Shown in pieces: positions 44,741-61,753 of a stretch of 64,000 nt of DNA. The translations under genes and the position numbers were made by a program. Every line of letters starts with the position of its first letter. Positions within the stretch are counted from its first letter, which is position 1. This DNA comes from Anaerolineae bacterium (GTDB lineage Bacteria > Chloroflexota > Anaerolineae > Anaerolineales > Anaerolineaceae), in contig JABUFD010000001.1 in the NCBI GenBank assembly GCA_013314735.1, forward strand, positions 1 through 64,000. Reading direction: 5' to 3'. The notes under the pieces are model-generated. The model searched no databases and was not told where the DNA came from. It saw nothing but the letters and a program-made list of their open reading frames with translations.

Positions 44741-45868
44741 TCATTGTTGTTCCGGTGGTTTGCTGCCAAGCAATCTCCGGAATCGTTCCCAGCCGGCCTT
44801 GAGATCCGGTTGTTTCAGGCGCCAGGTGCCGACAATGCCGTAGGGGAAGAACAGCACAATAAAGATGAAGATCAGGCCAAACACCAGTGGCCAGCGTGCT
44901 CCAAAGAAGTTATAGAGGAATTGGCTGAGGGTTTGCATTAATCCTGCTCCGATGATGGGACCAATGAGGGTACCCATGCCGCCCAGGATGACCATGATGA
45001 GCATATTGACCGTGGTGACGGCTGACGTCATCGAGGGGGTGGCGCTCATATTCCAGAGCGAATACATCGCCCCGGCCAGTCCGGCAAACAGGGACGCGGT
45101 CAGGAAGGTGATCGTGCGGTAAGTGGCCGGGTTGTACCCGATCATGCGCATGCGATCTTCATTTTCGCGGGTAGCGACAATCACACGCCCGGTGGGGGAG
45201 TTGGTGAAGCGGCGAATGACGAAATAGGAGATCACCAGGAAGGCCAGGGCGATGAAATAGAAGCGCAGGCGAAACTGGGTGGGGTTGAGCCAGGCCGGGA
45301 TCGGAACGCCGTGCAGTCCTTCATCAGCGCCGGTCCACTGGACAAAATCAGTTGCCTTGGCAAGGATGTGAATCGCCTCTGCCAGCGCCAGGGTCAGCAT
45401 GGCAAAGTAAGCGCCTTTCAGACGGGCGGAAGTGGCGCTGAACAAAGCGCCGATCAACAACGCCACCACGGCTGATGCCAAAAGGCTGGCGATGAAGATG
45501 ATCAGGGTAGTGATATCGGTCCCGCCGGGAATGGTGATGCGATAACGGCTGGCAAAGGTGGGTCCCCAATGCGTGAGGAGCAGGGCCATGGTGTAGGCGC
45601 CGCCGCCGAAAAATGCGGCATGGCCAAAGGAGAGAATCCCGGCATAACCGATCAACAGGTCATAGCTCATGGCAAGCACAGCCATGATAAAAAAGGCGAT
45701 CAATTGGCCCTGCCAATATTTGGTGATGCCGTCATTCAGACCGGAACCGGTGATCAGGTTCATGACGAACGGGAACAGGCCCAGGAGTACGGTCAGCACC
45801 AGGAAGCCGCTTTCGCGGCGGATAATTTTCCGGAAGGAGATTTTTTTGGTTGAAGTTGGTTCAGGCAT
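44741..45868 (-). CDS. branched-chain-type ABC transporter permease (LivM-like)
   Basis: 375 residues with about nine predicted helices. GYAGILSFGHAAFFGGGAYT is the LivM signature after the second helix, and the EAA-like loop is ATRENEDRMRMIGYNPATYR. It forms the channel with the LivH-like protein. AAGGAG precedes the ATG and the LivH stop is 3 bp upstream. Substrates of this family include branched-chain amino acids, urea, amides and aromatic or short carboxylic acids. The acyl-CoA genes upstream in the same run favour a carboxylic acid. Confidence 0.87.
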   Translation of the reverse strand: MPEPTSTKKISFRKIIRRESGFLVLTVLLGLFPFVMNLITGSGLNDGITKYWQGQLIAFFIMAVLAMSYDLLIGYAGILSFGHAAFFGGGAYTMALLLTHWGPTFASRYRITIPGGTDITTLIIFIASLLASAVVALLIGALFSATSARLKGAYFAMLTLALAEAIHILAKATDFVQWTGADEGLHGVPIPAWLNPTQFRLRFYFIALAFLVISYFVIRRFTNSPTGRVIVATRENEDRMRMIGYNPATYRTITFLTASLFAGLAGAMYSLWNMSATPSMTSAVTTVNMLIMVILGGMGTLIGPIIGAGLMQTLSQFLYNFFGARWPLVFGLIFIFIVLFFPYGIVGTWRLKQPDLKAGWERFRRLLGSKPPEQQ

Positions 45869-45871
45869 GCA

Positions 45872-47365
45872 CTACTCCTTTTTCCCGAAGAGACCCGAAG
45901 GGCGGATCAGCAGGACGATGATCATGATGATCACGGTCGAGGCTTCCGCGATGGCGGGTGACAATGACAGTTTCAGGGCGAAATAATCACCGAAAGCGCG
46001 TGCCAGGCCGAGGGTGAGTGCGCCAATGAAAGCACCCACATAGGAACCCATCCCACCCAACACCACCGTGATGAAGCCCTGCATCTGGAACTGGTCGCCC
46101 ATCAGGGGCTGCACCGGAATGAACGGCGCGGCGCCAATACCGCCCAGCGCGGCCATGGCAATTCCGAGGGCGAACACGAAGGTGAACACCTGGCGCACAT
46201 TAATGCCCAGTGCTTCCACCATTTCGGGATCCTGTACACCGGCACGGATGATCATTCCCAGACGGGTGCGGGTCATCAGGAGGGTGATGAAGATGAACAT
46301 CACCAGGCCGAGGGCGATGATGAACAGGCGGTAGGTGGGGAAAGTGACACCGAAGATGTTCAGGGTCGAGTTACCGTTGCGGAACCATTCGAGGACGGTT
46401 TCAGCCTTGCCTGGCTGGGCAAAGAACGGCGGCCGTACCATCTGGTAAGCCAGCGGATCCCACAGCACCTGCACCACCTCGCGGATTACAAAGCTCAGGC
46501 CGAGGGTCATCAGCACAATGAACGTGGCTCGCTGGTATAACGGCCGGATCAGGGTGATTTCGATGATCCCGCCGAAGACCAGTCCGAACAACACCGCCAC
46601 TATCATTGCCAGGAAGAAGCGCAGGTTGCCGTTCATCAGCAGCACCGTTTCTGGCAGGGCTTCGCGAAAGGCGGTCAGCAGTACTGTGGCTACAAACAGG
46701 GCGGCGACGATGATCCATTTCTGGGTGGTTTTTTCCGCCACGGCAAACTCAGTTTTATCGCCAGGCTTTGCAGTGGCAAAGGCAATCAATGCCCCGGACA
46801 CCAGCATCAGCGCGGGACGAACCCAGAAGCGCAGCAGTGGTTCCTGCGCGCTGAGTTCTGCCAGCGGATTATCCGCGGTCGTGGTGGTGATCGCCACCAT
46901 GGCGGTGTCCGCCAGGCCCATGATATCCAGCTGGTTGAAAGCAAAGAAGATCATCAGCAACGCCAGTGCGTATGCGATTCGCGGCAGGTTCTGCTGCAAT
47001 TTGGAATTGATTTCCCAGCGGATCAGTGCCGGTTTGATCAACGGCAGCAGCATCAAGCCGGATGCAAAAGCAAAGATCAGCGGCGATATGCCAAAGATAA
47101 AGGTCGGGTTGGTATAAAATTGCCACCCCATATAAGCACCCAGCATAAACATGGCGCCGTGGGCAAAGTTGAGAACATCCATCAGCCCGAAGATCAGAGT
47201 TAAACCGGCAGCGACCATGAAGAACAGGCTTCCCAGGGTTAACCCTGAAAGGGTGGTACGTACAAACGAAGCTGTCCCCAGTCCTGTCCAGCCCCAGGCG
47301 ATCAGCAGCAGGACCATGATGATGGCAGCACCGATTGGGAGAATTTTTTTCCATGCGAATTTCAT
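45872..47365 (-). CDS. branched-chain-type ABC transporter permease (LivH-like) with large insertion
   Basis: 497 residues, against about 300 for LivH. The N-terminal signature (GLMDVLNFAHGAMFMLGAYM, 60-79) and the block IEITLIRPLYQRA (268-280), normally about 15 residues apart, are separated here by roughly 170 additional residues. That insert has two or three hydrophobic helices and a soluble segment (about 145-215). The rest, with GMIIRAGVQDPEMVEALGIN as EAA-like loop, is regular. The ATG overlaps the LivF stop by 4 bp. The insert could alter topology or bind a partner. Family confident, meaning of the insert unknown. Confidence 0.85.
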   Translation of the reverse strand: MKFAWKKILPIGAAIIMVLLLIAWGWTGLGTASFVRTTLSGLTLGSLFFMVAAGLTLIFGLMDVLNFAHGAMFMLGAYMGWQFYTNPTFIFGISPLIFAFASGLMLLPLIKPALIRWEINSKLQQNLPRIAYALALLMIFFAFNQLDIMGLADTAMVAITTTTADNPLAELSAQEPLLRFWVRPALMLVSGALIAFATAKPGDKTEFAVAEKTTQKWIIVAALFVATVLLTAFREALPETVLLMNGNLRFFLAMIVAVLFGLVFGGIIEITLIRPLYQRATFIVLMTLGLSFVIREVVQVLWDPLAYQMVRPPFFAQPGKAETVLEWFRNGNSTLNIFGVTFPTYRLFIIALGLVMFIFITLLMTRTRLGMIIRAGVQDPEMVEALGINVRQVFTFVFALGIAMAALGGIGAAPFIPVQPLMGDQFQMQGFITVVLGGMGSYVGAFIGALTLGLARAFGDYFALKLSLSPAIAEASTVIIMIIVLLIRPSGLFGKKE

Positions 47366-48123
47366 TGTTCACCTCCGCTCTTTGCGGTACGTACACTGGC
47401 CCCCAGGTATTCATGCACCAACTCTTCGTTTTGCGCCAGGTCTTGCATCAAGCCGGAATGGACGCTTTTTCCATCATCGATGATCGTATAGCGTTGCGCC
47501 AGCTGGCTGGCCATGATGAAGTTCTGTTCCACCAACAGCACGGTGGTGGTGGCGCTCAGTTTACGGATGGCCTCCATCATCTGCTGGATCAGGATTGGCG
47601 CCAGGCCTTCGCTGGGTTCGTCAATTAACAGGAGCTTATTATCCGGCACCAGGGCGCGCGCCACCGCCAGCATCTGTTGCTGCCCGCCCGATAAATGGTT
47701 GCCGGGCAGCTTGTAGAGCCGTTTCAGGTCGGGGAACAGGTCAAAGATGAAATCAGCATGCTGCTCCAGGTCGCCACGTTTGCGTTCTGCCAGCTTGAGG
47801 TTTTCCATCACCGAAAGCTGGCGGAAGATGGCGCGGTTCTCGGGAACATAACCGATGCCCAGGTTGGCAATGTTGAAAGCGCGTTTTCCCTGGATTTCCA
47901 TCCCGTCAAACACCACCCGACCTTCGCGTGGTGGTGTCAGGCCGAGGATTGATTTTAAGGTAGTGGTCTTGCCGGCGCCGTTGCGCCCCAGCATGACTGT
48001 GATCGAGTTGGCAGGCACGGTCAGGCTGACGCCTTCAAGGATGTGGAACTGCCCGATGAAGGTCTGGATATTTTCCACCGACAACAGCGGTTGTGGGGAT
48101 TGGTTGGTGGTGAATGCGTTCAT
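47362..48123 (-). CDS. branched-chain-type ABC transporter ATP-binding protein (LivF-like)
   Basis: 253 residues. Walker A GRNGAGKTTTLK, signature LSGGQQQML, Walker B LLLIDEPSEGLAP and the LivF-type C-terminal GLMQDLAQNEELVHEYLG are present. It overlaps LivG and LivH genes by 4 bp on each side. Confidence 0.9.
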   Translation of the reverse strand: MNAFTTNQSPQPLLSVENIQTFIGQFHILEGVSLTVPANSITVMLGRNGAGKTTTLKSILGLTPPREGRVVFDGMEIQGKRAFNIANLGIGYVPENRAIFRQLSVMENLKLAERKRGDLEQHADFIFDLFPDLKRLYKLPGNHLSGGQQQMLAVARALVPDNKLLLIDEPSEGLAPILIQQMMEAIRKLSATTTVLLVEQNFIMASQLAQRYTIIDDGKSVHSGLMQDLAQNEELVHEYLGASVRTAKSGGEQ

Positions 48124-48890
48124 GCTAATTCTCCGTACAGGTCGCCGAGATAAGCCTTTTGCACCTGGCGGTTATTGGCTATTTCATGCGGTGAGCCTTC
48201 GGCAAGAATGGTGCCCTGGCTCATAACGGTGATTTTGTCAGAAATTTGCATTACCATATCCATGCGGTGTTCCACCAGGATGGCAGTGCGGCCTTTTTCT
48301 TTGACGACCTTGTTGATGATCTGGATCAACTCCGGCACCTGTTCCGAGGACATCCCGGCGGTTGGTTCATCAAACAACAGTAATTCAGGATCACACGCCA
48401 GCATAATGCCCAGTTCGAGCTTGCGTTTCTCGCCGTGCGGCAGGTTGCGGACGATGATCAGTTCCCGCCCTGTCAGCCCCACTTGCTCAATGACTGCCTC
48501 TGCTTTTTCGATATATTCGCTGTAATTTTCTGCCAGGTGCAGCAGGCGGAAATTGTGCTTGCCCATGGCCTGGGTGGCCAGGCGGATGTTCTCGAGCACG
48601 GTCAGGTTGGGGAAAATGTTGGTGATCTGGAACGAACGCCCGATGCCGAGATGCGCCCGGCGCTGGGGCGGCAGGTGGGTGATGTCGCGGCCGTGGTAGA
48701 ACACCTGGCCACTGGTGGGGGGCATTGTTCCACTCAACAGGTTGAAGAGTGTAGTTTTGCCAGCACCATTGGGTCCGATGATGGCATGCATGGTTTTTTC
48801 CTGGATATGGATGCTGACATCATCGACTGCCACCAGGCCGCCAAACGCCTTCCGTAGATTGTGTGCTTCAAGGATGTTTTCTTGACTCAT
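48120..48890 (-). CDS. branched-chain-type ABC transporter ATP-binding protein (LivG-like)
   Basis: 256 residues. Walker A GPNGAGKTTLFNLLSG and Walker B LLLFDEPTAGM are intact. The signature is unusual: LPHGEKRKLELG stands where most transporters have LSGGQ, as in other LivG proteins (LPYGxQR). AAAAAGG precedes the ATG. It is the first of four coupled transporter genes after the binding-protein gene. Confidence 0.9.
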   Translation of the reverse strand: MSQENILEAHNLRKAFGGLVAVDDVSIHIQEKTMHAIIGPNGAGKTTLFNLLSGTMPPTSGQVFYHGRDITHLPPQRRAHLGIGRSFQITNIFPNLTVLENIRLATQAMGKHNFRLLHLAENYSEYIEKAEAVIEQVGLTGRELIIVRNLPHGEKRKLELGIMLACDPELLLFDEPTAGMSSEQVPELIQIINKVVKEKGRTAILVEHRMDMVMQISDKITVMSQGTILAEGSPHEIANNRQVQKAYLGDLYGELA

Positions 48891-49027
48891 AGTGTACCTT
48901 TTTCATGAATGATTTGAACGATAACCAATGGAATAATTGCGCTTGTGAGTGTTGAAATGATCCTCAATATCCCGATTGTAACAAAAGGTTCATGCATGCG
49001 GCAATCAACGTTGCAGGATGGGAAACA

Positions 49028-49057
49028 GCGGGGAGGGGATGAAAGACCCCTCCCCGC
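49028..49057 (-). terminator. hairpin between binding-protein and LivG genes
   Basis: GCGGGGAGGGG and its complement (11 bp) with an 8-nt loop, 28 bp past the binding-protein stop. It has a weak T tail. It probably stabilises the upstream message or partly terminates. The rest of the 194-base gap shows nothing else. Confidence 0.6.
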
Positions 49058-49084
49058 GCCCCCAATTCGATGCAATCGAAAGGC

Positions 49085-50515
49085 TTACTCGACAGGGATG
49101 ACCGGCAGGTCGCCGCAACGGGCAGCGTAGTCGCCGGTCAGGGTGCAGGGAACACCCAGTTCATCAAAGGCGGTCACGTATACGGTCTCGAAGAATTCGT
49201 ATTCGTTGATCCCGTCGCCGTCCTGGTCAGGATTGAGGTTGACGAGTTTCAGAATGTTCATCGGTTGTTCGCAGACGTGGTCTTCCGGGCGGATGTAGTA
49301 AGTGCCCTTGGGGCCTTCGAATGTGAGGCCTTCCAGCGCGGTAATCATCACATCACCGGTGGTGTCGCCGCCGGTCGCTTCCAGTGCGGTGGCAAGGGCG
49401 ATGGCGGAGGCCATACCGCCGGCGGTGAACAGGTCAGGATATTCGCCAAATTCTTCCAGGTGGCGTTCCACCAGCCAATCGTTGACTTCGGTGTCAGCGG
49501 CGGTGTAGTGGTAAACATTCAAACCGATCTGGTCGAGGGCGGCGCCGTAAACGGCCGCAAAGGAAGCGTTGTCGCCGTAACCGGTGGCAACGGTCATCAC
49601 GTCCAGTGCGCCCAGGTCAGCCAGCTGCTGGAAGAGGGTCACGTAGCCAACACCGGCCCAGGTGAGGAACAGGTTGTCAGCACCGCTGTCCATGGCCTGC
49701 TGGATGTAGGGGGTGAAGTCGGTGGTGTCAAACGGAGCGTAGATATCAGCAACCATTTCGCCGCCGAATTTTTCAACCGAGTACTTGAGGGCGATACCGG
49801 AACCCTGGCCAAAGGCATTGTCGATACCGATGTGGGCAAAGGTGGGGCCGACGTTCTCAACCAGGTACTTAGCAATGACGAGGGTATCGTCAAAGTTGGT
49901 GCGGGAGGTGCGGAACACGTACGGATTGAAGTACGGGCCGGTGGTAAAGGAGGAGGCAGCAGGATCAACCATCAGGATGATCTCGTTCTCCAGCGCAACC
50001 GTGGTCAATGCTGCGGCAACGCCGGAAGCAACCGGACCCTGCAGGAGTTCAACGCCGTCTTTTTCAATCAGTTCCAGTGCCAGGGCGACGCCTTTTTCGG
50101 CATTGCCTTCGTCGTCTTTGGTGATCACTTCCACCGGGCGGTTGGCGATAATGTAGCGGCCTTCTTCATCCATATTGCCGCCAGACATATATTCCAGACC
50201 AAGCTGGAAGCCGCGCACCTGCTGCTGGCCGTAGAGGGCCATCGCGCCGGAAAGTTGGGAAATCTGCCCGATCTTGAGGACGGGGCCGAGTTCAACCACT
50301 TCTTCCTCTTCGACAACTTCTTCGGTGGGTTCTTCTTCCACCACTTCCTCTTCGACGGGTTCGGCGGTGGGCTCTTCTTCCACCACTTCTTCCTCAACGA
50401 CTTCTTCTTCTGCCACAGGTTCTTCAGTGGGTTCCTGAACTTCCTGCACGCAGGCCGACAGCATCATCGAAGCGATGAGCAGTACGGACACAACCAAAAG
50501 CAAAACTTTTTTCAT
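49085..50515 (-). CDS. branched-chain-type ABC transporter substrate-binding lipoprotein
   Basis: 476 residues. The signal peptide ends at LSAC (Cys22). Residues 23-75 are an acidic low-complexity linker of Glu, Val, Pro and Thr (repeats such as EEEVVEEE). The type I periplasmic-binding fold follows (LKIGQISQLSGAMALYGQQQ), typical of LivJ/LivK-like proteins for amino acids or carboxylic acids. Near the end, CEQPMNILKLVNLNPDQDGDGINEYEF carries an EF-hand-like DxDGD loop. AAGGAG lies 7 bp before the ATG. It lies 100 bp after the alpha/beta hydrolase gene and before the four transporter genes. Confidence 0.9.
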   Translation of the reverse strand: MKKVLLLVVSVLLIASMMLSACVQEVQEPTEEPVAEEEVVEEEVVEEEPTAEPVEEEVVEEEPTEEVVEEEEVVELGPVLKIGQISQLSGAMALYGQQQVRGFQLGLEYMSGGNMDEEGRYIIANRPVEVITKDDEGNAEKGVALALELIEKDGVELLQGPVASGVAAALTTVALENEIILMVDPAASSFTTGPYFNPYVFRTSRTNFDDTLVIAKYLVENVGPTFAHIGIDNAFGQGSGIALKYSVEKFGGEMVADIYAPFDTTDFTPYIQQAMDSGADNLFLTWAGVGYVTLFQQLADLGALDVMTVATGYGDNASFAAVYGAALDQIGLNVYHYTAADTEVNDWLVERHLEEFGEYPDLFTAGGMASAIALATALEATGGDTTGDVMITALEGLTFEGPKGTYYIRPEDHVCEQPMNILKLVNLNPDQDGDGINEYEFFETVYVTAFDELGVPCTLTGDYAARCGDLPVIPVE

Positions 50516-50617
50516 CTTTTTTCTCCTTGTTTAGTTTTGATGAAATATGGGTTTGGATTGGGACTTCTCAAACTGACATTTTCTCTCTTTGAATGGTGAT
50601 GCAAACACCTCCTTCAC

Positions 50618-51418
50618 TTAAGGTTTCGTATGCTTCGCGATGAAACCGATCAGCAGCGTGTTCAGGATGGCCGGCTTTTCCAGGCATAGGGCATGTCCTG
50701 AACCGGGTACGACCACATATTCACTACCCGCAATGCGGCTGGCAATGACCTCAGCAAAACGCCGACCTTTGATGAGATCATCCTCTCCAACCACCACCAG
50801 GGTTGGCGCTTGAATCCGGGATAATTCACCGGTAATTTCGAGTTTATAAAAAGCTTTCATCAATTCAACGAATGCCTTCATATCAATTTGCGCGTAACGC
50901 GCGGCTGAACCTTCGATGAAAGCCTGGTTGGCTTCGATGTAAGGTTTGGCAAAATTAAGATGGTATGATGTCCGCAGCAGCCATTCCGCATCTTCCTGTT
51001 CGGCGGCCATCAGCCACGGATAGGTCTGCCCGTGCAGCAATGCATCCACCTCACTCACGCCATCCATCACAATCAAAGAACGGGTCAGGTGGGGATATCG
51101 CAGCGCGAACACCATGCTGATTTCAGAGCCGTAAGAAATACCGCCAATGTGTGCGGCGGGAATCTGCAAGTGTTCCAGCAGGGCGGCCAGGTCATCGGCA
51201 TGCTGCTCCATCGAATAGGGTCCGGCCGGATGCTCCGACTGCCACATCCCGCGGCAATCATACAGCAGAACACGCATGTGTTTGTGCAGCTCCGCAGTCT
51301 GGTAAGCCCAACTGGCGGTGCTCATCATGATCCCATTGGAAAGCACCAGCACTTCACCGGTTTCGGGTCCGTGCAGTTCATAATACAGGTCTATTCCATG
51401 TACATGCGCGATTGCCAT
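50618..51418 (-). CDS. alpha/beta hydrolase
   Basis: 266 residues, a full alpha/beta-hydrolase fold. The nucleophile elbow is GISYG (93-97, Ser95), and the catalytic His lies in GSGHALCLEKP near the C-terminus. The oxyanion region is LSNGIMMS. It is most like 3-oxoadipate enol-lactone hydrolases and carboxylesterases. In this operon it may open a lactone or cleave an ester or thioester of the imported substrate. AAGGAA precedes two tandem ATGs and overlaps the stop of the DUF35 gene. Confidence 0.78.
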   Translation of the reverse strand: MAIAHVHGIDLYYELHGPETGEVLVLSNGIMMSTASWAYQTAELHKHMRVLLYDCRGMWQSEHPAGPYSMEQHADDLAALLEHLQIPAAHIGGISYGSEISMVFALRYPHLTRSLIVMDGVSEVDALLHGQTYPWLMAAEQEDAEWLLRTSYHLNFAKPYIEANQAFIEGSAARYAQIDMKAFVELMKAFYKLEITGELSRIQAPTLVVVGEDDLIKGRRFAEVIASRIAGSEYVVVPGSGHALCLEKPAILNTLLIGFIAKHTKP

Positions 51419-51428
51419 CATTCGTTCC

Positions 51429-51845
51429 TTAAGCAGGTTCAAAGGCGAGGTATTTTTTGCGGGTTTCGCCCTCACCACGTTCAATCGTGGTCATCACCAG
51501 AGGTGTTCCAATCCGGATCGTGTGAGGGGCATGCACATCCACATCCAGAATCTGGGCGCATACCCGCGCGCCTTCCTGCAGGGTGACAATCCCCACGCAG
51601 TAAGGGTTCTTGGCGCCGTATCCGGCAACCGCCATGTGGGTGGGGGGGACGCTGACCACAGTGAATGCGGCAAGTGTACCCTTCCCATCAAATTCGATGA
51701 CTTCCTGCCGGTCGGAGTGGCATGTGGGGCAGATCTGGCGTTGGGGGGCACTGATGTGGCCACAGTCCAGGCAGCGGGAGCCGATCAAACGATCCTGGCC
51801 GAGGGCGGTATAAAATTCCTTGCTGGTCAGTTGGAATGATGTCAT
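51429..51845 (-). CDS. Zn-ribbon/OB-fold (DUF35) protein, thiolase partner
   Basis: 138 residues. A zinc ribbon (Cys25, Cys28, Cys39, Cys42) is followed by an OB-fold (about 50-135). It begins one base after the thiolase stop. Such adjacency is the rule for thiolase-DUF35 complexes, for example BbsA/BbsB of benzylsuccinate degradation and the archaeal acetoacetyl-CoA thiolase/HMG-CoA synthase/DUF35 assembly, where DUF35 channels CoA intermediates. GGAGAG precedes the ATG. The longer open frame upstream overlaps the thiolase and is not used. Confidence 0.85.
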   Translation of the reverse strand: MTSFQLTSKEFYTALGQDRLIGSRCLDCGHISAPQRQICPTCHSDRQEVIEFDGKGTLAAFTVVSVPPTHMAVAGYGAKNPYCVGIVTLQEGARVCAQILDVDVHAPHTIRIGTPLVMTTIERGEGETRKKYLAFEPA

Positions 51846-51846
51846 G

Positions 51847-53112
51847 TCAGTCTCTCCGTTCAAAGATATGCACCACACAGGTCTGGCCGGAACCGCCCAC
51901 ATTGTGGGTGAGGCCTCTCCGTGGGTTGCCGGGCAATTGACGTTCGCCGGCCACACCGCGCAGTTGCTTCCATACTTCCACCACCTGGCCGACACCGGAA
52001 GCGCCAACAGGGTGGCCTTTGGCCTTGAGCCCACCGGAGGTGTTGATCGGGTGTTCACCATCACGGGCGGTTTTTCCGCTCATGGCGGCTTTCCAGCCTT
52101 CACCGCGCGGGAAGAATCCCAGGTCTTCGGTGGCCATAATTTCAGCGATGGTGAAACAATCATGAACCTCGGCAAAATCGATATCTTGCGGGCCAATGCC
52201 AGCCATTTGATAAGCCTGCTGACCGGCCTCGACAGCGGCCGGGATGTGCGAAAGGGTGGCCCGGTCGGTCAATGCGCCGTCGCTGGCCTGTCCGCTGCCG
52301 ATGATGTATATGGGGCTGTCTGTGTAGCGGAAAGCGATTTCTTCGGCAACCAGCAGCACGGCCACACCGCCATCGGAAACAGGCGAACAGTCAAACAGGC
52401 TCATCGGCCAGGCGATATTGGGGTTGCCCTTGGGATCGGCGAGAAATTCCAGTTCATCCTTCCATTCGGGCACCGGCAACCCTTTTTGTTCTGCCCGTGC
52501 TTTCTTGCTGGCCATGATATCGGCGATGCGTTGTCCAAACTGGGCTTTGTCATTGAGGGCACCGTTCTCATGGTTCTTGATGCTGACATGCGCCAGTGCC
52601 TGGGGTGAAGCGTCATACTGATCGAGATAGGCGGTTGCCATGGCGGCGTAGAAGCCCGGGAAGGTAAAGCCGGCGGGGATTTCAAATTGGGTATCGGCGG
52701 CGGTCGCCAGCGCTTCGGTGACCTCTGCGATTGGCAGGTCCGTCATTTTCTCCAGGCCGCCCACCAGAACCACATCATACATGCCGGAAGCGATCGCCAG
52801 CGCGGCTTCACGCAGGGCTACCCCGCCGCTGGCGCAGGCGTCTTCCACCCGCATTGCGGGAATCGGTGATAACCCGACCCAGCTGGCAACGATTGGCGCG
52901 AGGTGTGCTTGTTTTTCGAACTGGTCGCTGCTGAAGTTGCCCAGGTAGAACGCCTCGATTTGCCCGGGATCCAGGCCTTTGTCGACGGTCCCTTTCATTT
53001 CCAGGAAAGCCTCGACGAAGAGGTCGCGGGATGTTCTGTCAGGGAATGCGCCGAATTTGCTCATTCCTGCGCCAACCACGGCAACACCGCGTGCAAATTT
53101 TTGTTTTGCCAT
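51847..53112 (-). CDS. SCP2/acetoacetyl-CoA-type thiolase
   Basis: 421 residues. Catalytic Cys93 is in VEDACASGG. VHDCFTIAEI is the HDxF motif of SCP2-type thiolases (in place of NEAF), and AKGHPVGASGVGQ carries the catalytic His. It cleaves a 3-oxoacyl-CoA with CoA, or condenses acyl-CoAs. The immediate DUF35 partner marks it as one subunit of a complex. AAAGGTG precedes the chosen ATG three codons into the open frame. It is part of the CoA operon. Confidence 0.88.
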   Translation of the reverse strand: MAKQKFARGVAVVGAGMSKFGAFPDRTSRDLFVEAFLEMKGTVDKGLDPGQIEAFYLGNFSSDQFEKQAHLAPIVASWVGLSPIPAMRVEDACASGGVALREAALAIASGMYDVVLVGGLEKMTDLPIAEVTEALATAADTQFEIPAGFTFPGFYAAMATAYLDQYDASPQALAHVSIKNHENGALNDKAQFGQRIADIMASKKARAEQKGLPVPEWKDELEFLADPKGNPNIAWPMSLFDCSPVSDGGVAVLLVAEEIAFRYTDSPIYIIGSGQASDGALTDRATLSHIPAAVEAGQQAYQMAGIGPQDIDFAEVHDCFTIAEIMATEDLGFFPRGEGWKAAMSGKTARDGEHPINTSGGLKAKGHPVGASGVGQVVEVWKQLRGVAGERQLPGNPRRGLTHNVGGSGQTCVVHIFERRD

Positions 53113-53127
53113 ACAGTTCACCTTTGA

Positions 53128-53442
53128 TTAATGGATTTGTTTTTGATACAGTCGGGCGTTGTCCAGGTTTGCCGGACGCGGTTGCCCGGCGCCACTGGCG
53201 AGTGCCATTTTCAGGATGTCACCTTCCACCGCGAACAGGCCTTTGAATTCACCGACCAGGCCGAAGGTATGTGAAGTCTGGTTCATGGTGATATAATAAC
53301 CTTCCACCCGGTATGTGCCGCTGGACACGATTGCCATGGCGTCGTACTGGGCGAGGAATGTGCCGTCGCTTTTGAATTCGAACCACAGGCCGGCGTAGGG
53401 CTGGCCTTCATTCTGTACCCATTTTCCAAGAATTTTGTTCAT
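53128..53442 (-). CDS. small protein of unknown function in the CoA operon
   Basis: 104 residues, no signal peptide. The sequence alternates short beta-like strands (GLWFEFKSDGTFLAQY, SSGTYRVEGYYITMNQ), resembling small lipocalin-like or DUF5640-like barrels that measure deviation from a baseline fold. I do not recognise it with confidence. It lies 13 bp after the CoA-transferase gene and 15 bp before the thiolase gene, with AAAGGC before the ATG, so it is made with them. It might be a small-molecule-binding or structural subunit. Confidence 0.6.
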   Translation of the reverse strand: MNKILGKWVQNEGQPYAGLWFEFKSDGTFLAQYDAMAIVSSGTYRVEGYYITMNQTSHTFGLVGEFKGLFAVEGDILKMALASGAGQPRPANLDNARLYQKQIH

Positions 53443-53455
53443 TGACTTGCCTTTC

Positions 53456-54772
53456 TTAAAACTGGGTTTTGGGGACGATCCCCAGGCGGTGCGCTTCATC
53501 CCGGATCCAATCCCGGAAATCAGGATGGGCAACCCGAATCAGAGCTTCCATGCGGTCTTTGACCGAACGTCCGCGCAATTCTGCCACGCCGAATTCGGTG
53601 ATGATGGTATCCACATCCTGGCTGGGCACGGTTACACCGGCGCCGGGAGCAAGGGTGGGTACGATGGTGGAGATGGCACCATTCTTGGCGGTCGAGCGCA
53701 GGGCGATGATCCCGCGCCCGCCTTCGGAGAGCTGCGCGCCGCGGTGGGTGTCCAGCTGTCCGCCAGTGCCGCTGAACTGGCGTGTACCAATGCTCTGTGA
53801 GCATACCTGCCCCAGGATGTCGACTTGCAGGGCGGTGTTGACGCTGACCATCTTGTTGTTTTTCGCAATGACGTAGGGATCATTGACATAGCGGCCGCGG
53901 TACAACTCTACATTCTGGTTGTGATCGAGGAAGTCATACAGTTTGCGCGTGCCGAGGGCAAAGGTGCCGATAATCTTGCCGGGGTGCAGGGTTTTGCGGC
54001 TGTTGTTGACCACACCGGCTTCGAACAGGTCAACCATCCCATCCACGATCATTTCGGTGTGAATACCGAGATCTTTGCGCTCCATAATGTAAGCGGTGAT
54101 GGCATTGGGGATGCCGCCGATGCCCAACTGGATCGTGGAACCATCTTCAATCAAATCGGCAATGTAACCGCCAATCTGCTGTTCGATCTCGCTGGATTCG
54201 CCGTTGGACAACTCCACCAGCGGTATGTGGTTTTCCACCACATAATCCACCTCGGATATATGCACCAGGGTGTCGCCATAGGTCCACGGCAGGTTTTCGT
54301 TGATCTCGAGGATTTTCAGGCTGGCTGCGTTGAGCAGATCACGTTCCACAATCAGGCCGATGGAGAGGGACATGTACCCTTCTTCGTTCGGTGGGGTAGC
54401 AGTGCCGAAGAACACATCCAGGTGTCCTTTGGTGGCATACAGTTTGTCCTCGGAAGCACGGTGGAGGTTGTTGGGGATATAGGAAACGCGCCCTTCGGGG
54501 TGTACCTGGCGATCGGTAAAGCTGTAGAACCAGTTTTCGTTGAAGAAATGCCCTGCCATTTCAGGTTGGGCGAAGATGTCATAGGCACGCATGGGCAGGC
54601 AAGTCCAGCAGTGCACTCCTTCCAATCGGTTGCGCTGACTGGCGAGTTCTGTCAGCAGGCCAACCGGTTCTGAACCGGCAATGGCAATTCCCAGTGTCTG
54701 GTGTGATTGCACCATTGCGGCTGCTTCCGCAAAGGAGATGTATTTTTCAGGGTAACTTCTGGCAGAATTCAT
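53456..54772 (-). CDS. acetyl-CoA hydrolase/transferase family CoA-transferase (4-hydroxybutyrate CoA-transferase-like)
   Basis: 438 residues, family I CoA-transferase with both domains in one chain. The catalytic Glu240 lies in GIHTEMIVDGMVDLFEAG, and the GxGG-type CoA loop is QLGIGGIPNAI. The C-terminal FGVAELRGRSVKDRMEALI is typical of the Cat1/4-hydroxybutyrate CoA-transferase group. It would move CoA from acetyl-CoA to the imported acid. GAAAGG precedes the ATG. It lies between the KAS III-like gene (22 bp) and the small unknown. Confidence 0.88.
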   Translation of the reverse strand: MNSARSYPEKYISFAEAAAMVQSHQTLGIAIAGSEPVGLLTELASQRNRLEGVHCWTCLPMRAYDIFAQPEMAGHFFNENWFYSFTDRQVHPEGRVSYIPNNLHRASEDKLYATKGHLDVFFGTATPPNEEGYMSLSIGLIVERDLLNAASLKILEINENLPWTYGDTLVHISEVDYVVENHIPLVELSNGESSEIEQQIGGYIADLIEDGSTIQLGIGGIPNAITAYIMERKDLGIHTEMIVDGMVDLFEAGVVNNSRKTLHPGKIIGTFALGTRKLYDFLDHNQNVELYRGRYVNDPYVIAKNNKMVSVNTALQVDILGQVCSQSIGTRQFSGTGGQLDTHRGAQLSEGGRGIIALRSTAKNGAISTIVPTLAPGAGVTVPSQDVDTIITEFGVAELRGRSVKDRMEALIRVAHPDFRDWIRDEAHRLGIVPKTQF

Positions 54773-54794
54773 ACCGGTTGACCTTTCATTATGT

Positions 54795-55802
54795 TTATGG
54801 CATGCGGAAAGCGACGGCTGCCTGGTTGTAGCCTACCCCTGAACCTACAAAGACCACCAGGTCGCCGGATTTGATTTTGCCCAGCTTGCGGGCATCGTCG
54901 AACGCCATTGGCAGGCAGGCAGAGCCGGTGTAGCCCCACTTGTCCATCACCCAATGCGCTTTTTCGATGGGCAATCCCAGTTCTTCCATTACCAGTTGAA
55001 TACTGTTCAAGCGCACCTGGGTGAAGATCACAAAATCGATATCCTGGATGTCGAAGCCGCCATTTTTGGCAACTTCACGTACGCGCTTCGGCCAGCCTTC
55101 ATTATTAACCTCGGGCGGGAAGGCATTGACCAGGCGTACCTGGGTTTTGCCGGATTGTACATTTTCCACACTGGCCGGTTCGGCTGTCCCGCCGGCATAA
55201 ATGCCCCAATGATTGGCAAAAGAGCCATCGGCAAAGAAGCTGGAGGAGATAAAGCCGGGTTTATCGCTGGGCGCAACGATCGCCGCGCCAGCGCCGTCGC
55301 CGTAGAAGAAGGCCATCACATCATGCTTGTAATCTGCCAGGCGGTGCATCATGTAGGCGCCAATCACCAGCACATATTTCAGATTGGGATTGGTCATGAT
55401 CAGTCCAGCCGCCTGTGCCAGCCCGGTGGGGAATGAAGCACAGGCACATCCGACATCATACGTGCCGGCATTGACCGCGCCCAATTTGTGCTGCACCACA
55501 ACCGATGTGGCAGGGGTGATGAAATCCGGGCTGTCCGTGCCGAGGATGATCAGGTCGATCTCTTCCGGGGTGATCCCGGCATCGGCAATGGCATCCCTGG
55601 CGGCTGCCACAGCCAGGTCGGAGGTTGCCCAATCTTCCGGGGCATAGAAACGGGTTTTGATGTTGGAACTGGCTTCAAATTTGCCGACCACATCAGCCAG
55701 TTTGGGGCTGACAGCGCCCATCCATTCAGCAAAGGTGGCATTGGTGATTTCGTTCTCGGGCAGGCAGCGGCCTGTCCCAATGATGGTTGCGTAACGTGTC
55801 AT
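54795..55802 (-). CDS. beta-ketoacyl synthase III-like protein lacking the catalytic His and Asn
   Basis: 335 residues, full FabH/thiolase-like fold. Cys121 in GCACASFPTG aligns with the acyl-accepting cysteine. The FabH His (LVPHQAN) is Thr261 (VIFTQVR), and the Asn (GNTSAAS) is Tyr291 (GYTGSAC), so the decarboxylating pair is missing. It may use another condensation, transfer an acyl group from its Cys, or be a non-catalytic partner. Position with thiolase and DUF35 recalls the archaeal HMG-CoA synthase complex. AAAGGG lies 8 bp before the ATG; the open frame extends seven codons upstream without support. Confidence 0.82.
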   Translation of the reverse strand: MTRYATIIGTGRCLPENEITNATFAEWMGAVSPKLADVVGKFEASSNIKTRFYAPEDWATSDLAVAAARDAIADAGITPEEIDLIILGTDSPDFITPATSVVVQHKLGAVNAGTYDVGCACASFPTGLAQAAGLIMTNPNLKYVLVIGAYMMHRLADYKHDVMAFFYGDGAGAAIVAPSDKPGFISSSFFADGSFANHWGIYAGGTAEPASVENVQSGKTQVRLVNAFPPEVNNEGWPKRVREVAKNGGFDIQDIDFVIFTQVRLNSIQLVMEELGLPIEKAHWVMDKWGYTGSACLPMAFDDARKLGKIKSGDLVVFVGSGVGYNQAAVAFRMP

Positions 55803-55861
55803 GGAATAACCCTTTCGATCCAAAGTGTTGGTGATTCAATCCAGTGCGATGTGCCCCGTGC

Positions 55862-56626
55862 CTAGGTGCCCAGCACCATACCGCCATCGACGCTGATGGT
55901 GGTGCCGGAGATGTATGAAGCTTCATCGCTGGCCAACCAGCAGTAAACGTTGGCGACGTCTTCCGGTTCGCCCATACGGCCGAGTGGTGTTTTGGCTGCG
56001 AGGCCTTCCAGGATTTTCTCGGGCATTTTCCTGACCATTTCGGTCAGGATGAAACCAGGGCAGACCGCGTTGACGCGAATATTGTACTTGCCCAGCTCAC
56101 GTGACCAGGTTTTGGTCATGCCGATGACACCAAACTTGGTGGCGGCATAGTTGGTCTGGCCAAAGTTGCCGTACAACCCGACGATGGAAGAGGCATTCAG
56201 AATTACTCCGCCGCCCTGCTTGATCATTTGGGGGGTCACTGCCTGGGCGCAGTTAAAAACCCCTTTGAGGTTGACATTCACCACCATATCGAAGGCCTGC
56301 TCGTCCATCTGCCCGACCATTTCGCCTTCTTTGAATTTAACCAACTGCCCATCGCGGGTGATGCCGGCGTTGTTAACAAGGACATCAACGCGCCCAAATT
56401 TGGCGACAACATCATCAACCCAGGATTGCACATCCTGGCGGTTGGTGACATCTACCTGGTAAAACACAGCGCCATTCCCCAGTTCAGCGGCAAGCGCCTG
56501 GCCTATTTCTTGATTGACATCACAAATGACTACCTTCGCGCCTTCACTGGCGAATTTCTCCGCGGTGGCTTTGCCGATCCCGGCAGCACCACCCGTAATT
56601 AAACAGACCTTGTCCTTTAATCGCAT
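55862..56626 (-). CDS. short-chain dehydrogenase/reductase (FabG-like)
   Basis: 254 residues, classical SDR. GGAAGIGKA (cofactor loop), NNAG, Ser in NASSIVGLYG, and YAATK (Tyr/Lys catalytic pair) are intact; the Asp in VVICDVN suggests NAD(H) preference. SVDGGMVLGT is the usual C-terminus. The role is probably 3-hydroxyacyl-CoA oxidation before thiolysis, or the reverse. AAGGAG fixes the start. It is the first gene of the 12-kb minus-strand run and lies next to the tandem-repeat promoter. Confidence 0.9.
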   Translation of the reverse strand: MRLKDKVCLITGGAAGIGKATAEKFASEGAKVVICDVNQEIGQALAAELGNGAVFYQVDVTNRQDVQSWVDDVVAKFGRVDVLVNNAGITRDGQLVKFKEGEMVGQMDEQAFDMVVNVNLKGVFNCAQAVTPQMIKQGGGVILNASSIVGLYGNFGQTNYAATKFGVIGMTKTWSRELGKYNIRVNAVCPGFILTEMVRKMPEKILEGLAAKTPLGRMGEPEDVANVYCWLASDEASYISGTTISVDGGMVLGT

Positions 56627-56705
56627 GGAATACTCCTTAACCTGTGGATGATATGGCTCATTTACAGCATAAACGGCAGAAAATATCTGCGTTGTACGCA
56701 TCCAC

Positions 56706-56744
56706 AGGATACCACTGCTACATTACAAAGCGGTTACAAAGCGG
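56706..56744 (-). promoter_or_regulatory. tandem 11-bp repeat and promoter before the CoA operon (candidate SARP site)
   Basis: TTACAAAGCGG occurs twice without a gap (56723-56733 and 56734-56744) and is followed by TAACAG. Read on the minus strand, the repeats lie 11 bp upstream of TATCCT, a possible -10. SARP proteins are known to bind direct repeats with an 11-bp period next to the -10. The adjacent regulator has a SARP-type C-terminus. Confidence 0.5.
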
Positions 56745-56751
56745 TAACAGT

Positions 56752-59700
56752 TCAGAAAGAAAAGGTGCCTTTTTGCTCCTTTGCCAGTAATTCCTCGTAC
56801 AGTTGGCGGATCTTGGGTGAGGGCGGCGCATTGAACTGACGTTCGAATGCCTCAACGCATTGTTTGTAGACCGTTCGCACCATCGAATAACGTCCCATGC
56901 GATGGAAGATGCGCATTTGCAAGCGGTAGGCTGATTCCCATACATTGTCCTGTGCCAGGATGCGGAAGGTAATCTCCAGCGCCTGTTCCAGTTTGCTGTC
57001 ATCGATCAACAAATGGGTGAGTTTTTCAGCGGCCAGCAGGAATTGCTGATGATAAAATTGCTCCTCCACCACCAGCCATTCCTGCACATAACTGTCTTCA
57101 AAATAGTGACCCTGGTACAGGTCCACTGCCGCTTCCAGGTCCATCAACGTATTGGATGCGGCAGCTTTTTCGAATAATTCTGTATCAATCATGATCCGGG
57201 CAGTGGGATTAAGTCGATACAATTCCTGTTGGCGTTCCACGAAAAATGGCTGAGCGCCGCGGACGCGCTCCGGTTCCAGCACCTGGTTAAGGGCATTGAA
57301 GACAACTTTCAGGTTATTGGCGGCGGCATCGGTCAATGTTTCGGGCCAGAGCATGTTGATCAACTGGTCGCGGTGCATCCATTTTCCACGGTGGGCTACC
57401 AGCAGCTGCATTAATTGCCTGGCTTTCTCACGTTTCCATTCTTGTTGGTCGATTTCTTGCGTGCCGCGCCAGATGGCGAAGCCGCTGAATGTTTTCACCC
57501 ACAGGGTGTAGCCGGGATGCGTGTTCATGTCCAGCAGCCCGTGCGCGCTGAGGATGTGGTTGATCCATTCAGGTTCAATCGCATGCTCCCGGGCGGCCAG
57601 CAGTAGCGGTAGGATCATTTCCCGATCTTTCAGGCCCAGGTAGGTTTCACGGGTCAACAGGAAATCATACTGGTGTTGGCGAATGACCGGCAATAATTTT
57701 TCCAGTGTAACAAAAGCGGTGTTGCGGTATCCCTGGTACCAGGCATTCACCGCCAGCCATAATCGTGCTGCGCTGAGGGCAAACGGATCTTTCACTTTGA
57801 TGGCGGCTGATTCAGCGATGGAAAGGTGGTGCTGTGCCTGATCATAATTGCCTGCCAATACTTCCCCCGCGCCCAAGGAAACCTGGACCAGGATGCGGAT
57901 CCAGACATCACCTGCTTTTTCTGCAATTGCCAGGGCTTCCTGTGCCACCTGACGGGCTTCCACCACACGGTTGGAATAGCCCAGTGCACGGCAAATACCC
58001 CACAAGGGTTCCACGTGGATGCGGACCACGTCTACCTGCCTCATCGATTCACGGTAGGAGGTAATCGCCCGTTCGTATCCATCCTGATTCCACGGATGGG
58101 TGTTGCGCAGCTGAAGCGTATGCCCCAGGCGCATGATGCCGACCGATTGGACAAAGGTCGATTGCAATTGCTCACCGATCTGTATTCCACGTTGAGCATA
58201 TCTCTCCGCCCCATCGATATCGCCCATCAGGCTGTAGAATAATGATAGCAGCAACGAAGCTTCACGGTGGAAGCGCTGCGGGCGTGACAGGGTAGGCGAT
58301 ACCTGGGTGCTCTCCCGTTCTTCCAGCAGCCTGATCCCTTCCCTCAGGCGGCCGGTGCGCAGGTACAGTCGTGCCTGGATCAAGTCGGTTTCGGTGTCCA
58401 ATTCCGGCCGCAGCGCGCGTGCCTGTTGGAGCAGGCTTTCGGCGCTGTCCGGGCTGCCAAGATTCAACTGGTTCTCAGCAGTCAACACCAACAGATCAGC
58501 AACTTCCTGGGGCATCTCTACCGGATTCAGAAGACGCAGCGCATCCTGCAGCAATTGGTCTGCATTGACCGGGCGGATCGTATCGAGAAAGACCTGCGCC
58601 TGTCCACGCAACGCCATGCTTGTTCCCCAAAGATTCTCCTGGGCGCGGTAAATGCGTTCAGCACTATGGTAATACTCCAGCGCCTGGTCAAAGCGTGAGG
58701 CGAAACGGTTGACCTCTCCCAACAAATAGTTAACGTATGGGTAGTGCCTGCGGACTGATTCGGGAAAGGCGTTGATCCAATAATTAATACTTTCCTGGCG
58801 ACCATCCATGATCATCCGTTCGCCGATGTTCTGCAAGATCTGGTTCACCTGGCGGTAATCACCTGCCGAAAGCAGGTGATAAATGGCTTCTTCCCAGTAT
58901 TCGTGGGCGGTGAAATAACTCGCGATGGTCCGGTGGTATTCGATGGTTTCCGCCGGGTGCTGCTGCAGGCGATTGAGCAGAAATTCGCGGAAAATCTGGT
59001 GGTAGCGGTATAGACCTGGTCGCAGTTCTTCGATGAATAGACCACTATGATGCAATTTGCGCAGCATTTCATCGCTGGTGTCGCTTCTCATCAGAAAATC
59101 ACAGGTGGCCGAATCCAGTTTGGAGAGGATCGATGTGCGCAGCAGGAATTGCTGTGTGCTGGCATCCTGGCGGGAAAGCACCTCTTCCGCCAGATAATCG
59201 AACAAAGCCATCCTGGATTCGCGGTTGTCTTCCAGTACGGACAGCAGGCTGCGGCCGGGATTGTTTTGCAGAGATTGCCATACCATCTGAAGCCCGATCG
59301 CCCATCCTTCGGTTTTTTCCAACAGCTGATCAATTTCCAACGGGGTCAGTTTGATGCCGTACTCCGACTCGAACAACACCTGCACTTCCTCGGCTGTGAA
59401 CGTGAGGTCATCGCGCGTAATTTCCAACAAGGCGCCTTTGACACGCCACTTGTTGAATGATGGAAAATCAATCATTTGCCGGCTTGAAATGACCATATGC
59501 AGGTTGGAGGGGATGTTCTCAATCATCCAATCCATTAACGCCATGATTTCCGGAATGTCGCGCACGCGGTGAAAATCATCCAGTACCATGAGCGTGGGAT
59601 GTGCCAGGCGCGTGGACAGGGCATTAATGAAAGCGATCATTGCCTCCTGTTGGGTGGCGTCCGGCATATCGAGGATGCGCAGTGCTTCATCGCCGATTTC

Positions 59701-59979
59701 ATCACCGTGCTGGTTGAATGCCGTAAACAGCTTTGCAAGGAACAACCTGGGATCGCGGTCTGATCCGGTGATGGTGTACCAATAAACCGGTTTGTCGAGG
59801 CGATGTACAAAAGAGATGATCGCCGTACTTTTACCATACCCGGTGCCGGCTTGCAGGATGGTGAGTGGGTAGGAGAATGCGCCACTTAAAATAGAAGAGA
59901 CTCGCTCCCGGATGAGGACGCGGCTGCGCTGCGCGGGCGGATTCAACTGGCTGAGGATGATCAGGTTTCGGATGGACAT
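56752..59979 (-). CDS. MalT-like STAND ATPase fused to a SARP-type (winged helix + BTAD) domain
   Basis: 1075 residues. The NTPase domain has Walker A AGTGYGKST (44-52) and Walker B-like LMVLDDFH. A winged-helix connector (to about 330) and a long helical repeat (TPR-like) region of about 370-800 follow. From about 825 an OmpR-type winged helix (WKREKARQLMQLLVAHRGKW, MLWPETLTDAAANNLKVVFN) and a BTAD domain to the end match SARP activators. The layout suggests a ligand- and ATP-gated switch that activates neighbouring genes. It lies on the same strand just upstream of the CoA operon. The ATG has only a weak ribosome-binding site. Confidence 0.85.
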   Translation of the reverse strand: MSIRNLIILSQLNPPAQRSRVLIRERVSSILSGAFSYPLTILQAGTGYGKSTAIISFVHRLDKPVYWYTITGSDRDPRLFLAKLFTAFNQHGDEIGDEALRILDMPDATQQEAMIAFINALSTRLAHPTLMVLDDFHRVRDIPEIMALMDWMIENIPSNLHMVISSRQMIDFPSFNKWRVKGALLEITRDDLTFTAEEVQVLFESEYGIKLTPLEIDQLLEKTEGWAIGLQMVWQSLQNNPGRSLLSVLEDNRESRMALFDYLAEEVLSRQDASTQQFLLRTSILSKLDSATCDFLMRSDTSDEMLRKLHHSGLFIEELRPGLYRYHQIFREFLLNRLQQHPAETIEYHRTIASYFTAHEYWEEAIYHLLSAGDYRQVNQILQNIGERMIMDGRQESINYWINAFPESVRRHYPYVNYLLGEVNRFASRFDQALEYYHSAERIYRAQENLWGTSMALRGQAQVFLDTIRPVNADQLLQDALRLLNPVEMPQEVADLLVLTAENQLNLGSPDSAESLLQQARALRPELDTETDLIQARLYLRTGRLREGIRLLEERESTQVSPTLSRPQRFHREASLLLSLFYSLMGDIDGAERYAQRGIQIGEQLQSTFVQSVGIMRLGHTLQLRNTHPWNQDGYERAITSYRESMRQVDVVRIHVEPLWGICRALGYSNRVVEARQVAQEALAIAEKAGDVWIRILVQVSLGAGEVLAGNYDQAQHHLSIAESAAIKVKDPFALSAARLWLAVNAWYQGYRNTAFVTLEKLLPVIRQHQYDFLLTRETYLGLKDREMILPLLLAAREHAIEPEWINHILSAHGLLDMNTHPGYTLWVKTFSGFAIWRGTQEIDQQEWKREKARQLMQLLVAHRGKWMHRDQLINMLWPETLTDAAANNLKVVFNALNQVLEPERVRGAQPFFVERQQELYRLNPTARIMIDTELFEKAAASNTLMDLEAAVDLYQGHYFEDSYVQEWLVVEEQFYHQQFLLAAEKLTHLLIDDSKLEQALEITFRILAQDNVWESAYRLQMRIFHRMGRYSMVRTVYKQCVEAFERQFNAPPSPKIRQLYEELLAKEQKGTFSF

Positions 59980-60063
59980 GGTTTCTTGTAACGCCGTTCA
60001 TCAAGACAGATAGGGCTGCAAGGTGGGTAATACTCTCTGGCAGGCATCAGCCTGTTCCTTACT

Positions 60064-60113: not shown

Positions 60114-60154
60114 AGATAGTATCAACAATATGTTGTACTTCAGTGAGAAATGGT

Positions 60155-61732: not shown

Positions 61733-61753
61733 TGATGGAGGAACGCAAATAAA

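Follow-up and report, generated by a model that had tools for sequence, protein, structure and literature searches.

The first 64,000 nt of contig JABUFD010000001.1 from an Anaerolineae bacterium (GenBank assembly GCA_013314735.1), hereafter the window, form the start of a 1.34-Mb contig in a genome of 4.09 Mb in total. On its minus strand lies a cluster in which the gene for a large STAND-SARP regulator is followed by genes for a short-chain dehydrogenase/reductase (SDR), a protein resembling β-ketoacyl-acyl carrier protein synthase III (KAS III), a CoA-transferase, a small protein, an SCP2-type thiolase, a DUF35 protein, an alpha/beta hydrolase and a full Liv/HAAT importer set of binding protein, two ATPases and two permeases (Table 1). 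An earlier note, made from the sequence alone, had named these genes, their order, their single strand, the short gaps and the adjoining regulator of 1075 residues, all of which we confirmed. From the regulator to the hydrolase, the intergenic gaps are 1–125 nt (1 nt between thiolase and DUF35); the binding-protein gene has 102 nt before it and 194 nt after it, and the transporter genes are spaced by −4 to +3 nt. For the SDR, we prefer the start at 56626 (254 aa, with a good ribosome-binding site) because the predicted promoter sits just upstream. The small open reading frame (ORF) at 53128–53442 is very probably a real gene. The parts come from known families, and it is their combination and control that are new, together with the operator, a candidate second operon, the occurrence of the module across phyla and a KAS III subfamily with a Cys-Thr-Tyr triad. 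Literature searches, which covered titles and the openings of abstracts, returned no work on this cluster.

Table 1. Features of the cluster, from the regulator to the last importer gene (positions in the window)
Feature	Position	Strand	Basis
STAND-SARP regulator, 1075 aa	56752..59979	-	Pfam, NCBIfam
Predicted operator CTGTTAC / TTGTAAC / TTGTAAT, 4-nt spacers	56722..56750	-	sequence, conservation
Predicted -10 element TATCCT, 10 nt past last heptamer	56706..56711	-	
SDR, 254 aa, FabG-type, predicted (R)-3-hydroxyacyl-CoA dehydrogenase	55862..56626	-	
KAS III-like protein, 335 aa, Cys121-Thr261-Tyr291, ATG at 55802	54795..55802	-	
Family I CoA-transferase, 438 aa, 4-hydroxybutyrate/butyryl-CoA:acetate type, Glu240	53456..54772	-	
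Small beta-barrel protein (calycin/lipocalin-like), 104 aa	53128..53442	-	
SCP2-type thiolase, 421 aa, Cys93/His317/Cys319/His367	51847..53112	-	
DUF35 protein (zinc ribbon + OB fold), 138 aa, likely thiolase partner	51429..51845	-	
Alpha/beta hydrolase, 266 aa, esterase/lactonase-like	50618..51418	-	
Liv/HAAT-type substrate-binding protein, 476 aa	49085..50515	-	
Perfect 11-bp GC-rich stem-loop between binding-protein gene and first ATPase gene	49028..49057	-	
Importer ATPase, LivG type	48120..48890	-	
Importer ATPase, LivF type	47362..48123	-	
Importer permease, LivH type	45872..47365	-	
Importer permease, LivM type	44741..45868	-	

Two collections served for comparison. A set of 61 related genomes was searched for the KAS III-like protein, the operator and the polyhydroxyalkanoate (PHA) synthase PhaC. 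A scan with one genome per species gave at least 559 confirmed relatives of the KAS III-like protein. We retained the best 80 as loci L046–L125, which divide into a main group of 51 Chloroflexota loci (L046–L096) and 29 others (L097–L125) from Bacillota, Acidobacteriota, Riflebacteria and other Chloroflexota. Among the 61 genomes, 11 encode the KAS III-like protein at 68% identity or more (the window's genome included; one copy is split over two contigs), and five further genomes do so at 43–46%. An AMP-forming CoA ligase is encoded nearby in four of these five divergent genomes; the contig of the fifth ends after a radical-SAM gene and a hydrolase gene. Within the main group, the CoA-transferase was found in all 51 loci, the SDR in 48, the thiolase in 41 (tblastn did not find it in the other ten), the hydrolase and the binding protein in 40 each, DUF35 in 38, LivG/F in 36, the regulator and the small protein in 35 each, a second hydrolase type in 19 and MaoC in 12, and these counts are lower bounds since many contigs are short. 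The other 29 loci contain a ligase (18), an SDR (18), a TonB-type receptor (12), a CoA-transferase (7) or a PRK06840-type KAS (6); ligase and CoA-transferase were both unseen in four, namely L116, which spans 3 kb, and three Riflebacteria loci. In Bacillota loci, a thiolase of the classical acetyl-CoA acetyltransferase type replaces the thiolase and DUF35.

The comparison of gene order across Chloroflexota that the earlier note had proposed thus finds the order again in related genomes and in public loci and, because of this recurrence, it is not due to chance. Within Anaerolineaceae, the gene set forms a conserved module, variants of which occur in other Chloroflexota, Acidobacteriota and Bacillota. 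Across these loci, the KAS III-like protein accompanies CoA activation, the SDR and import rather than DUF35, Riflebacteria excepted. In some copies, genes of the 23S_rRNA_IVP family are inserted at differing positions of the cluster (L037, 4482–4847; L098, 7022–7393; L102, 2369–2758). One copy is entirely plasmid-borne (L126; CP069395.1, plasmid plas-ZRK of Chloroflexota strain ZRK35) and has an additional gene between the TPR regulator gene and the SDR gene.

The regulator consists of a MalT-like ATPase/TPR region (residues 7–523), a winged helix (851–903) and a BTAD domain (940–1065). Ahead of the SDR gene are three copies of a heptamer with the consensus YTGTWAY, spaced at 11 bp. We surveyed this operator in 81 sources, the window and the 80 loci. 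Sequence upstream of the SDR reached 150 nt or more in 64, which comprise 46 from the main group (counting the window) and 18 others; the remaining 17 were left out. A strict pair, defined as two heptamers at 11 bp, occurs in 31 of the 46 main-group regions and 4 of the 18 others, with none on the reverse strand and a mean of 0.005 per 46 regions after block shuffling. A relaxed pair, with up to two mismatches in the 14 bases, occurs in 44 of 46 and 4 of 18, respectively, with one match on the reverse strand; dinucleotide shuffles gave a mean of 0.09 and a maximum of 1, and periods of 9, 10, 12 and 13 gave 0–1. Exactly 10 nt past the last heptamer, 39 of the 48 operator-bearing regions have the hexamer TAnnnT (0–3 at the other offsets tried). 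As the main-group sequences are related, these counts are not independent events. Outside the main group, the operator is present in three Bacillota loci, two with the classical acetyl-CoA acetyltransferase-type thiolase (L097, L104) and one whose thiolase is typed by BLAST only (L108), and two divergent ligase-type loci (L038, L039) have a site with two mismatches and a -10-like hexamer at 10 nt. When the 52 loci with at least 3.5 kb of upstream sequence are considered, regulator and operator are both present in 31 and both missing in 9. Upstream of the regulator gene, L048 and L049 carry a RecD2-type helicase gene, with ORFs of similar size in L047 and L050–L052.

The PimR operator has three heptamers with 4-nt spacers, and classical SARP units measure 11 bp (PMC5930380). 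The system described here is like PimR and the SARP-LAL regulators of Streptomyces in that a STAND-type ATPase is joined to a SARP part and three heptamers with 4-nt spacers stand upstream of the target. It is unlike them in several respects: the SARP part is N-terminal in PimR and C-terminal here (BTAD ends at residue 1065 of 1075), and the heptamer CGGCAAG of these regulators (PMC5930380) is TTGTAAC here. Moreover, the predicted target in Chloroflexota and Bacillota is a catabolic operon, unlike that of Streptomyces SARP-LAL. We predict that the regulator activates transcription by binding the tandem heptamers, which lie immediately upstream of the -10 element; the operator ties the STAND-SARP gene and the operon together, and one large regulator probably switches the operon on through 56722–56750.

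Does the regulator have other targets? With up to one mismatch, the heptamer triple occurs once in the 4.09-Mb genome, at this operon (control, 0). Exact triples are present in 5 of the 61 genomes, four of them at this locus; the fifth (G049, C2:23328-23356; L156) precedes a pentapeptide-repeat gene and an antiporter/NADH-dehydrogenase-like gene. The exact pair TTGTAAC-N4-TTGTAAY is found at two sites in the window's genome, this operon and contig C11. On C11, the pair lies 81 nt ahead of an operon for an acyl-CoA dehydrogenase (ACAD), the electron-transfer flavoprotein (ETF) subunits EtfB and EtfA and a MaoC-type protein, and TATAAT follows the second heptamer by 9 nt. The MaoC-type protein was typed by BLAST and a model below its cut-off, and the ACAD and ETF are nearest to C3 acryloyl-CoA reductase, also with a score below cut-off. 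Searches of the genome gave no other ACAD and no ECH_1 crotonase; the C11 operon would therefore provide the two steps that the window's operon lacks. Exact pairs also occur in 8 of 13 further genomes that carry the cluster, where 11 of the 12 matches are at the cluster (control, 3). The twelfth, in the L098 genome, has TATCAT at 10 nt and lies 7.5 kb before the cluster and downstream of a STAND-SARP gene. It precedes genes for two short helical proteins, PHA synthase, a PhaE-like protein and a PhaC-like protein; the helical proteins matched no phasin family, and "phasin-like" describes them by context only. A class I PhaC scoring above its cut-off is encoded inside L098 itself and, in the 61-genome set, the one PhaC found is also encoded inside the cluster. 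The PHB-esterase family PF10503 is present in 25 of the 61 genomes (12 of the 16 that encode the KAS III-like protein and 13 of the 45 that do not, uncorrected for kinship); as the family is broad and most scores are weak, we did not rely on it as a marker of polyhydroxybutyrate (PHB) use.

The KAS III-like protein has a FabH-like fold (Foldseek E of 6e-37 to 4dfe; model pLDDT 88), and its scores with the curated fabH model (173 of 292 bits) and the archaeal HMGCS model TIGR00748 (35 of 353 bits) are below cut-off. We aligned 86 rows of at least 42% identity, from the window, the 80 loci and five divergent loci. The set is defined by identity rather than as a single clade, since the tree of KAS proteins had long branches and, at a weak fork, put the divergent ligase-type rows with FabH. 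All 86 rows have the triad Cys-Thr-Tyr, whereas two FabH rows in the same alignment have Cys-His-Asn. In FabH, the His and Asn are required for decarboxylative condensation. Thus, the fold and the nucleophilic Cys are common to both, and the catalytic His and Asn of FabH are replaced by Thr and Tyr. From the loss of this pair, we infer a non-decarboxylating reaction with acyl-CoA, predicted to be acyl transfer or thiolysis. A housekeeping FabH role was rejected because the triad is altered and because, among 37 genomes from the same family, just 10 carry the protein at 68% identity or more. In three Riflebacteria loci (L114, L122 and L125), the Cys-Thr-Tyr gene stands without the partners that we sought, and in L114 a gene of the chloramphenicol-acetyltransferase family follows it.

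Six of the loci (L102, L105, L107, L109, L113 and L124) encode a second KAS protein with Cys-(Ile/Val/Leu)-His, and the two that were scored reached 412 and 415 bits against the PRK06840 cut-off of 315. On haloarchaeal plasmids, relatives of this second KAS (36–39% identity) terminate Liv operons (L127–L130), with AMP-ligase and alpha/beta-hydrolase genes nearby in two of the four records viewed. A bolder idea, to which we attach low confidence, is that the KAS III-like protein represents a new enzyme class on this fold, in which the Cys would accept the acyl group from an ester or oligomer of 3-hydroxybutyrate and pass it to CoA, by thiolysis or its reverse. Oligomers could then be activated without a second CoA-activation, and the PRK06840-type partner would be a sister activity or a subunit.

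The thiolase residues Cys93, His317, Cys319 and His367 are present in all 40 aligned rows (window and loci). The protein belongs to the PRK06064 subfamily (453 bits; cut-off 420), falls short of the AcCoTHIOL_METTL equivalog (419 of 600 bits) and, like the DUF35 protein, which is likely its partner, has its nearest solved relatives in the archaeal acetoacetyl-CoA thiolase/HMGCS complex 6esq, the thiolase catalytic residues being kept here. The third protein is different, being a FabH-like KAS III with Cys-Thr-Tyr rather than an HMGCS, and so is the setting, with an importer and a CoA-transferase. An archaeal mevalonate/HMGCS role was rejected, given the low TIGR00748 score and a separate HMGS-like/thiolase pair on contig C6 (about 427660–429900; L044), arranged as in the archaeal-type mevalonate pathway. 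A steroid aldolase of the Ltp2/Sal kind was likewise rejected: the thiolase motif is HDCF in 40 of 40 rows, not the YDHF or YDCY given for these aldolases (PMC12329534).

The earlier note held that the combination of genes matches no known pathway. This does not apply to the subunit types since a KAS III-like protein, a thiolase and a DUF35 protein make up both the archaeal HMGCS complex and PhlACB, the Friedel-Crafts acyltransferase of Pseudomonas (PMC6392133), whose three subunit types are here also encoded together. It does hold for the KAS III-like protein, which belongs to a subfamily other than that in PhlACB and also occurs without DUF35; PhlA has lost its Cys (Gly115), whereas the Cys is invariant here (PMC6392133). 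The shared subunit types raise the possibility that the three proteins form one multienzyme C-acyltransferase that builds a product. We consider this quite improbable. In Bacillota loci, the neighbor of the KAS III-like protein is a classical thiolase with no DUF35, and some Chloroflexota loci that encode it have neither thiolase nor DUF35. The protein is FabH-like rather than HMGCS-like, and the genome has the separate pair on C6.

The same note cited BbsAB, beside the archaeal HMG-CoA synthase assembly, as a known thiolase-DUF35 complex. An SCP2-type thiolase with a DUF35 partner is indeed common to both, but both subunits score far below the BbsA (40 of 250 bits) and BbsB (140 of 750 bits) cut-offs, and it is the archaeal complex that is nearest. 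Apart from this analogy, β-oxidation of an imported aromatic acid along benzylsuccinate-like lines could draw on the fact that some solved relatives of the binding protein take aromatic acids. Given these scores, the lack of an ACAD or hydratase gene in the operon and a crotonase above cut-off in only 1 of the 11 CoA-transferase-type cluster genomes, this reading is very improbable. By similar reasoning (low family scores, neither gene in the operon and few in the genomes), benzylsuccinate-like or full fatty-acid β-oxidation within the operon was rejected.

In the SDR, Tyr160 and Lys164 are present in 67 of 67 rows, and Asp36 at the end of β-2 suggests the use of NAD(H), an Asp at this position being the NAD type by an established rule; its nearest solved relatives are the NADH-dependent FabGs 4nbw and 4nbv. 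In the CoA-transferase, Glu240 (59 of 59 rows) aligns with the catalytic Glu238 of 3gk7. This enzyme is closest to 4-hydroxybutyrate types, its best model is butyryl-CoA:acetate, below cut-off, and with TIGR03948 it scores 284 of 675 bits, so that the family is assigned and a substrate assignment is not supported by score. Ser96 and His243 of the alpha/beta hydrolase occur in 45 of 45 rows. The second hydrolase type, with 25 rows in the 80 loci, has GWSMG, GWSLG, GWSAG or GHSMG in 21, a box similar to that in intracellular PHB depolymerases, and scores 79 of 300 bits with a PHA-depolymerase model. The small protein was modelled as an eight-stranded barrel (pLDDT 95); a structure search gave no match with E ≤ 0.001, the best, weak ones being lipocalin-like and fatty-acid-binding barrels, and a role as a carrier is conjecture. 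The binding protein scores 42 of 477 bits with the model for branched-chain amino acid binding proteins. The stem-loop that follows its gene may possibly uncouple its expression from that of the transporter.

What, then, is imported? That one operon combines import of a carboxylic acid, its activation with CoA and thiolytic shortening, as had been proposed, is supported as an inference from the protein families. The acid, left unknown in the earlier note, can be narrowed. The operon itself contains no hydratase or ACAD gene, and 6 of the 11 CoA-transferase-type cluster genomes (one only 69% complete) have no ACAD match; the five ligase-type genomes have several ACADs and crotonases each. Together with the scarcity of crotonases noted above, the missing ACADs suggest that the core substrate of the CoA-transferase-type cluster enters at the 3-hydroxy, 3-oxo or, with MaoC, enoyl level and, when the PHA genes linked in two relatives are also considered, entry at the 3-hydroxyacyl level is most likely. 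The PHA links, the FabG-type SDR and the acetoacetyl-CoA-type thiolase point to (R)-3-hydroxybutyryl-CoA as the hub, and the short-chain relatives of the CoA-transferase, thiolase and ACAD/ETF point to C4 size. The combination of a FabG-type SDR with an acetoacetyl-CoA-type thiolase and MaoC, joined in two relatives by PHA synthase genes, is shared with PHA/3-hydroxybutyrate metabolism; known PHA clusters, to our knowledge, include neither an importer nor a KAS III-like protein nor STAND-SARP control.

Although with little more than even confidence, we therefore favor the view that a small STAND-SARP regulon, with this locus as its main operon, serves C4-acid uptake and oxidation through (R)-3-hydroxyacyl-CoA. 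The Liv-type importer would take in the acid, most likely 3-hydroxybutyrate or its short esters, the alpha/beta hydrolase would split imported esters, and the CoA-transferase would transfer CoA to the acid. The SDR, with NAD, would then oxidize (R)-3-hydroxybutyryl-CoA to acetoacetyl-CoA, which the archaeal-type thiolase and DUF35 would convert to two acetyl-CoA. Through the second operon, with its similar promoter, the ACAD, ETF and MaoC-type hydratase could let saturated short acids such as butyrate enter, and it is because of this operon that butyrate use is possible in this genome.

It is also conceivable, though unlikely, that the route is right and the C4 assignment wrong, the substrates being other 3-hydroxy or 3-oxo acids such as longer (R)-3-hydroxy fatty acids or 2-methyl-branched C5 acids. 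The fatty-acyl-CoA-ligase-like enzymes of the ligase-type variants and the TonB-type receptor of Acidobacteriota loci suggest larger substrates there, and Liv importers take branched compounds. The short-chain relatives of the CoA-transferase, thiolase and ACAD, and the class I PHA synthase linked in one relative, argue for C4 instead. Running the pathway in reverse, to ferment acetyl-CoA to butyrate or 3-hydroxybutyrate with the importer serving another purpose, would agree with the best model of the CoA-transferase and with an ACAD-ETF nearest to the reductive acryloyl-CoA type behind a similar upstream site. We regard it as improbable given the ABC importer in the operon, the hydrolases and the cluster genomes with no ACAD match.

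Several observations weigh against the catabolic regulon that we favor. In two comparisons, the pair is no more frequent than in controls: with up to one mismatch, the window's genome has 4 (control, 5), and outside the cluster the 61 genomes have 12 exact pairs against 12 in the control, with 10 more at the cluster. Besides the C11 site, one of these outside pairs, in G037, is followed by a full TATAAT at 11 nt. Since pair counts are at control level, assignment of the C11 operon rests on promoter context and gene content, and non-cluster exact pairs in other genomes were not accepted as regulon members. Regulator and operator do not always coincide, for among the 52 loci nine have the operator with no regulator in view (in one of them, L098, regulator-like genes lie just beyond the locus edge) and three have the regulator with no operator; the site is also missing from three of the five divergent ligase-type loci, and L126, on its plasmid, has no heptamer pair. 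Five main-group loci (L064, L067, L068, L070 and L071) have an otherwise full operon without thiolase and DUF35, and in 4 of the 80 loci (L116 and three from Riflebacteria) the KAS III-like protein occurs without any sought partner. For the solved proteins closest to the binding protein, no ligand is known to us. Finally, unlike PHA clusters, the window's genome has no PhaC (PF07167) match; the PHA link therefore rests on the two relatives, and this bacterium would scavenge, not store.

Beyond the cluster, a strong 12-bp stem (44670–44697) lies between the operon end and a convergent Gfo/Idh gene on the opposite strand. On the other side, divergent genes at 60143–63720 encode two NAD-epimerase-like proteins and one protein of the tocopherol-cyclase family.

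A KAS III subfamily with a changed triad can now be named, in records titled Chloroflexota, Acidobacteriota, Bacillota and Riflebacteria. If our view of the locus is correct, both Chloroflexota and Bacillota would have a primary catabolic operon preceded by a SARP-type operator, which is known from antibiotic clusters of Streptomyces and could be used to find further target genes in uncultured genomes. The Anaerolineaceae would also gain a concrete and testable catabolic regulon; knowledge of this family comes largely from metagenome assemblies, as do most records of our scan.

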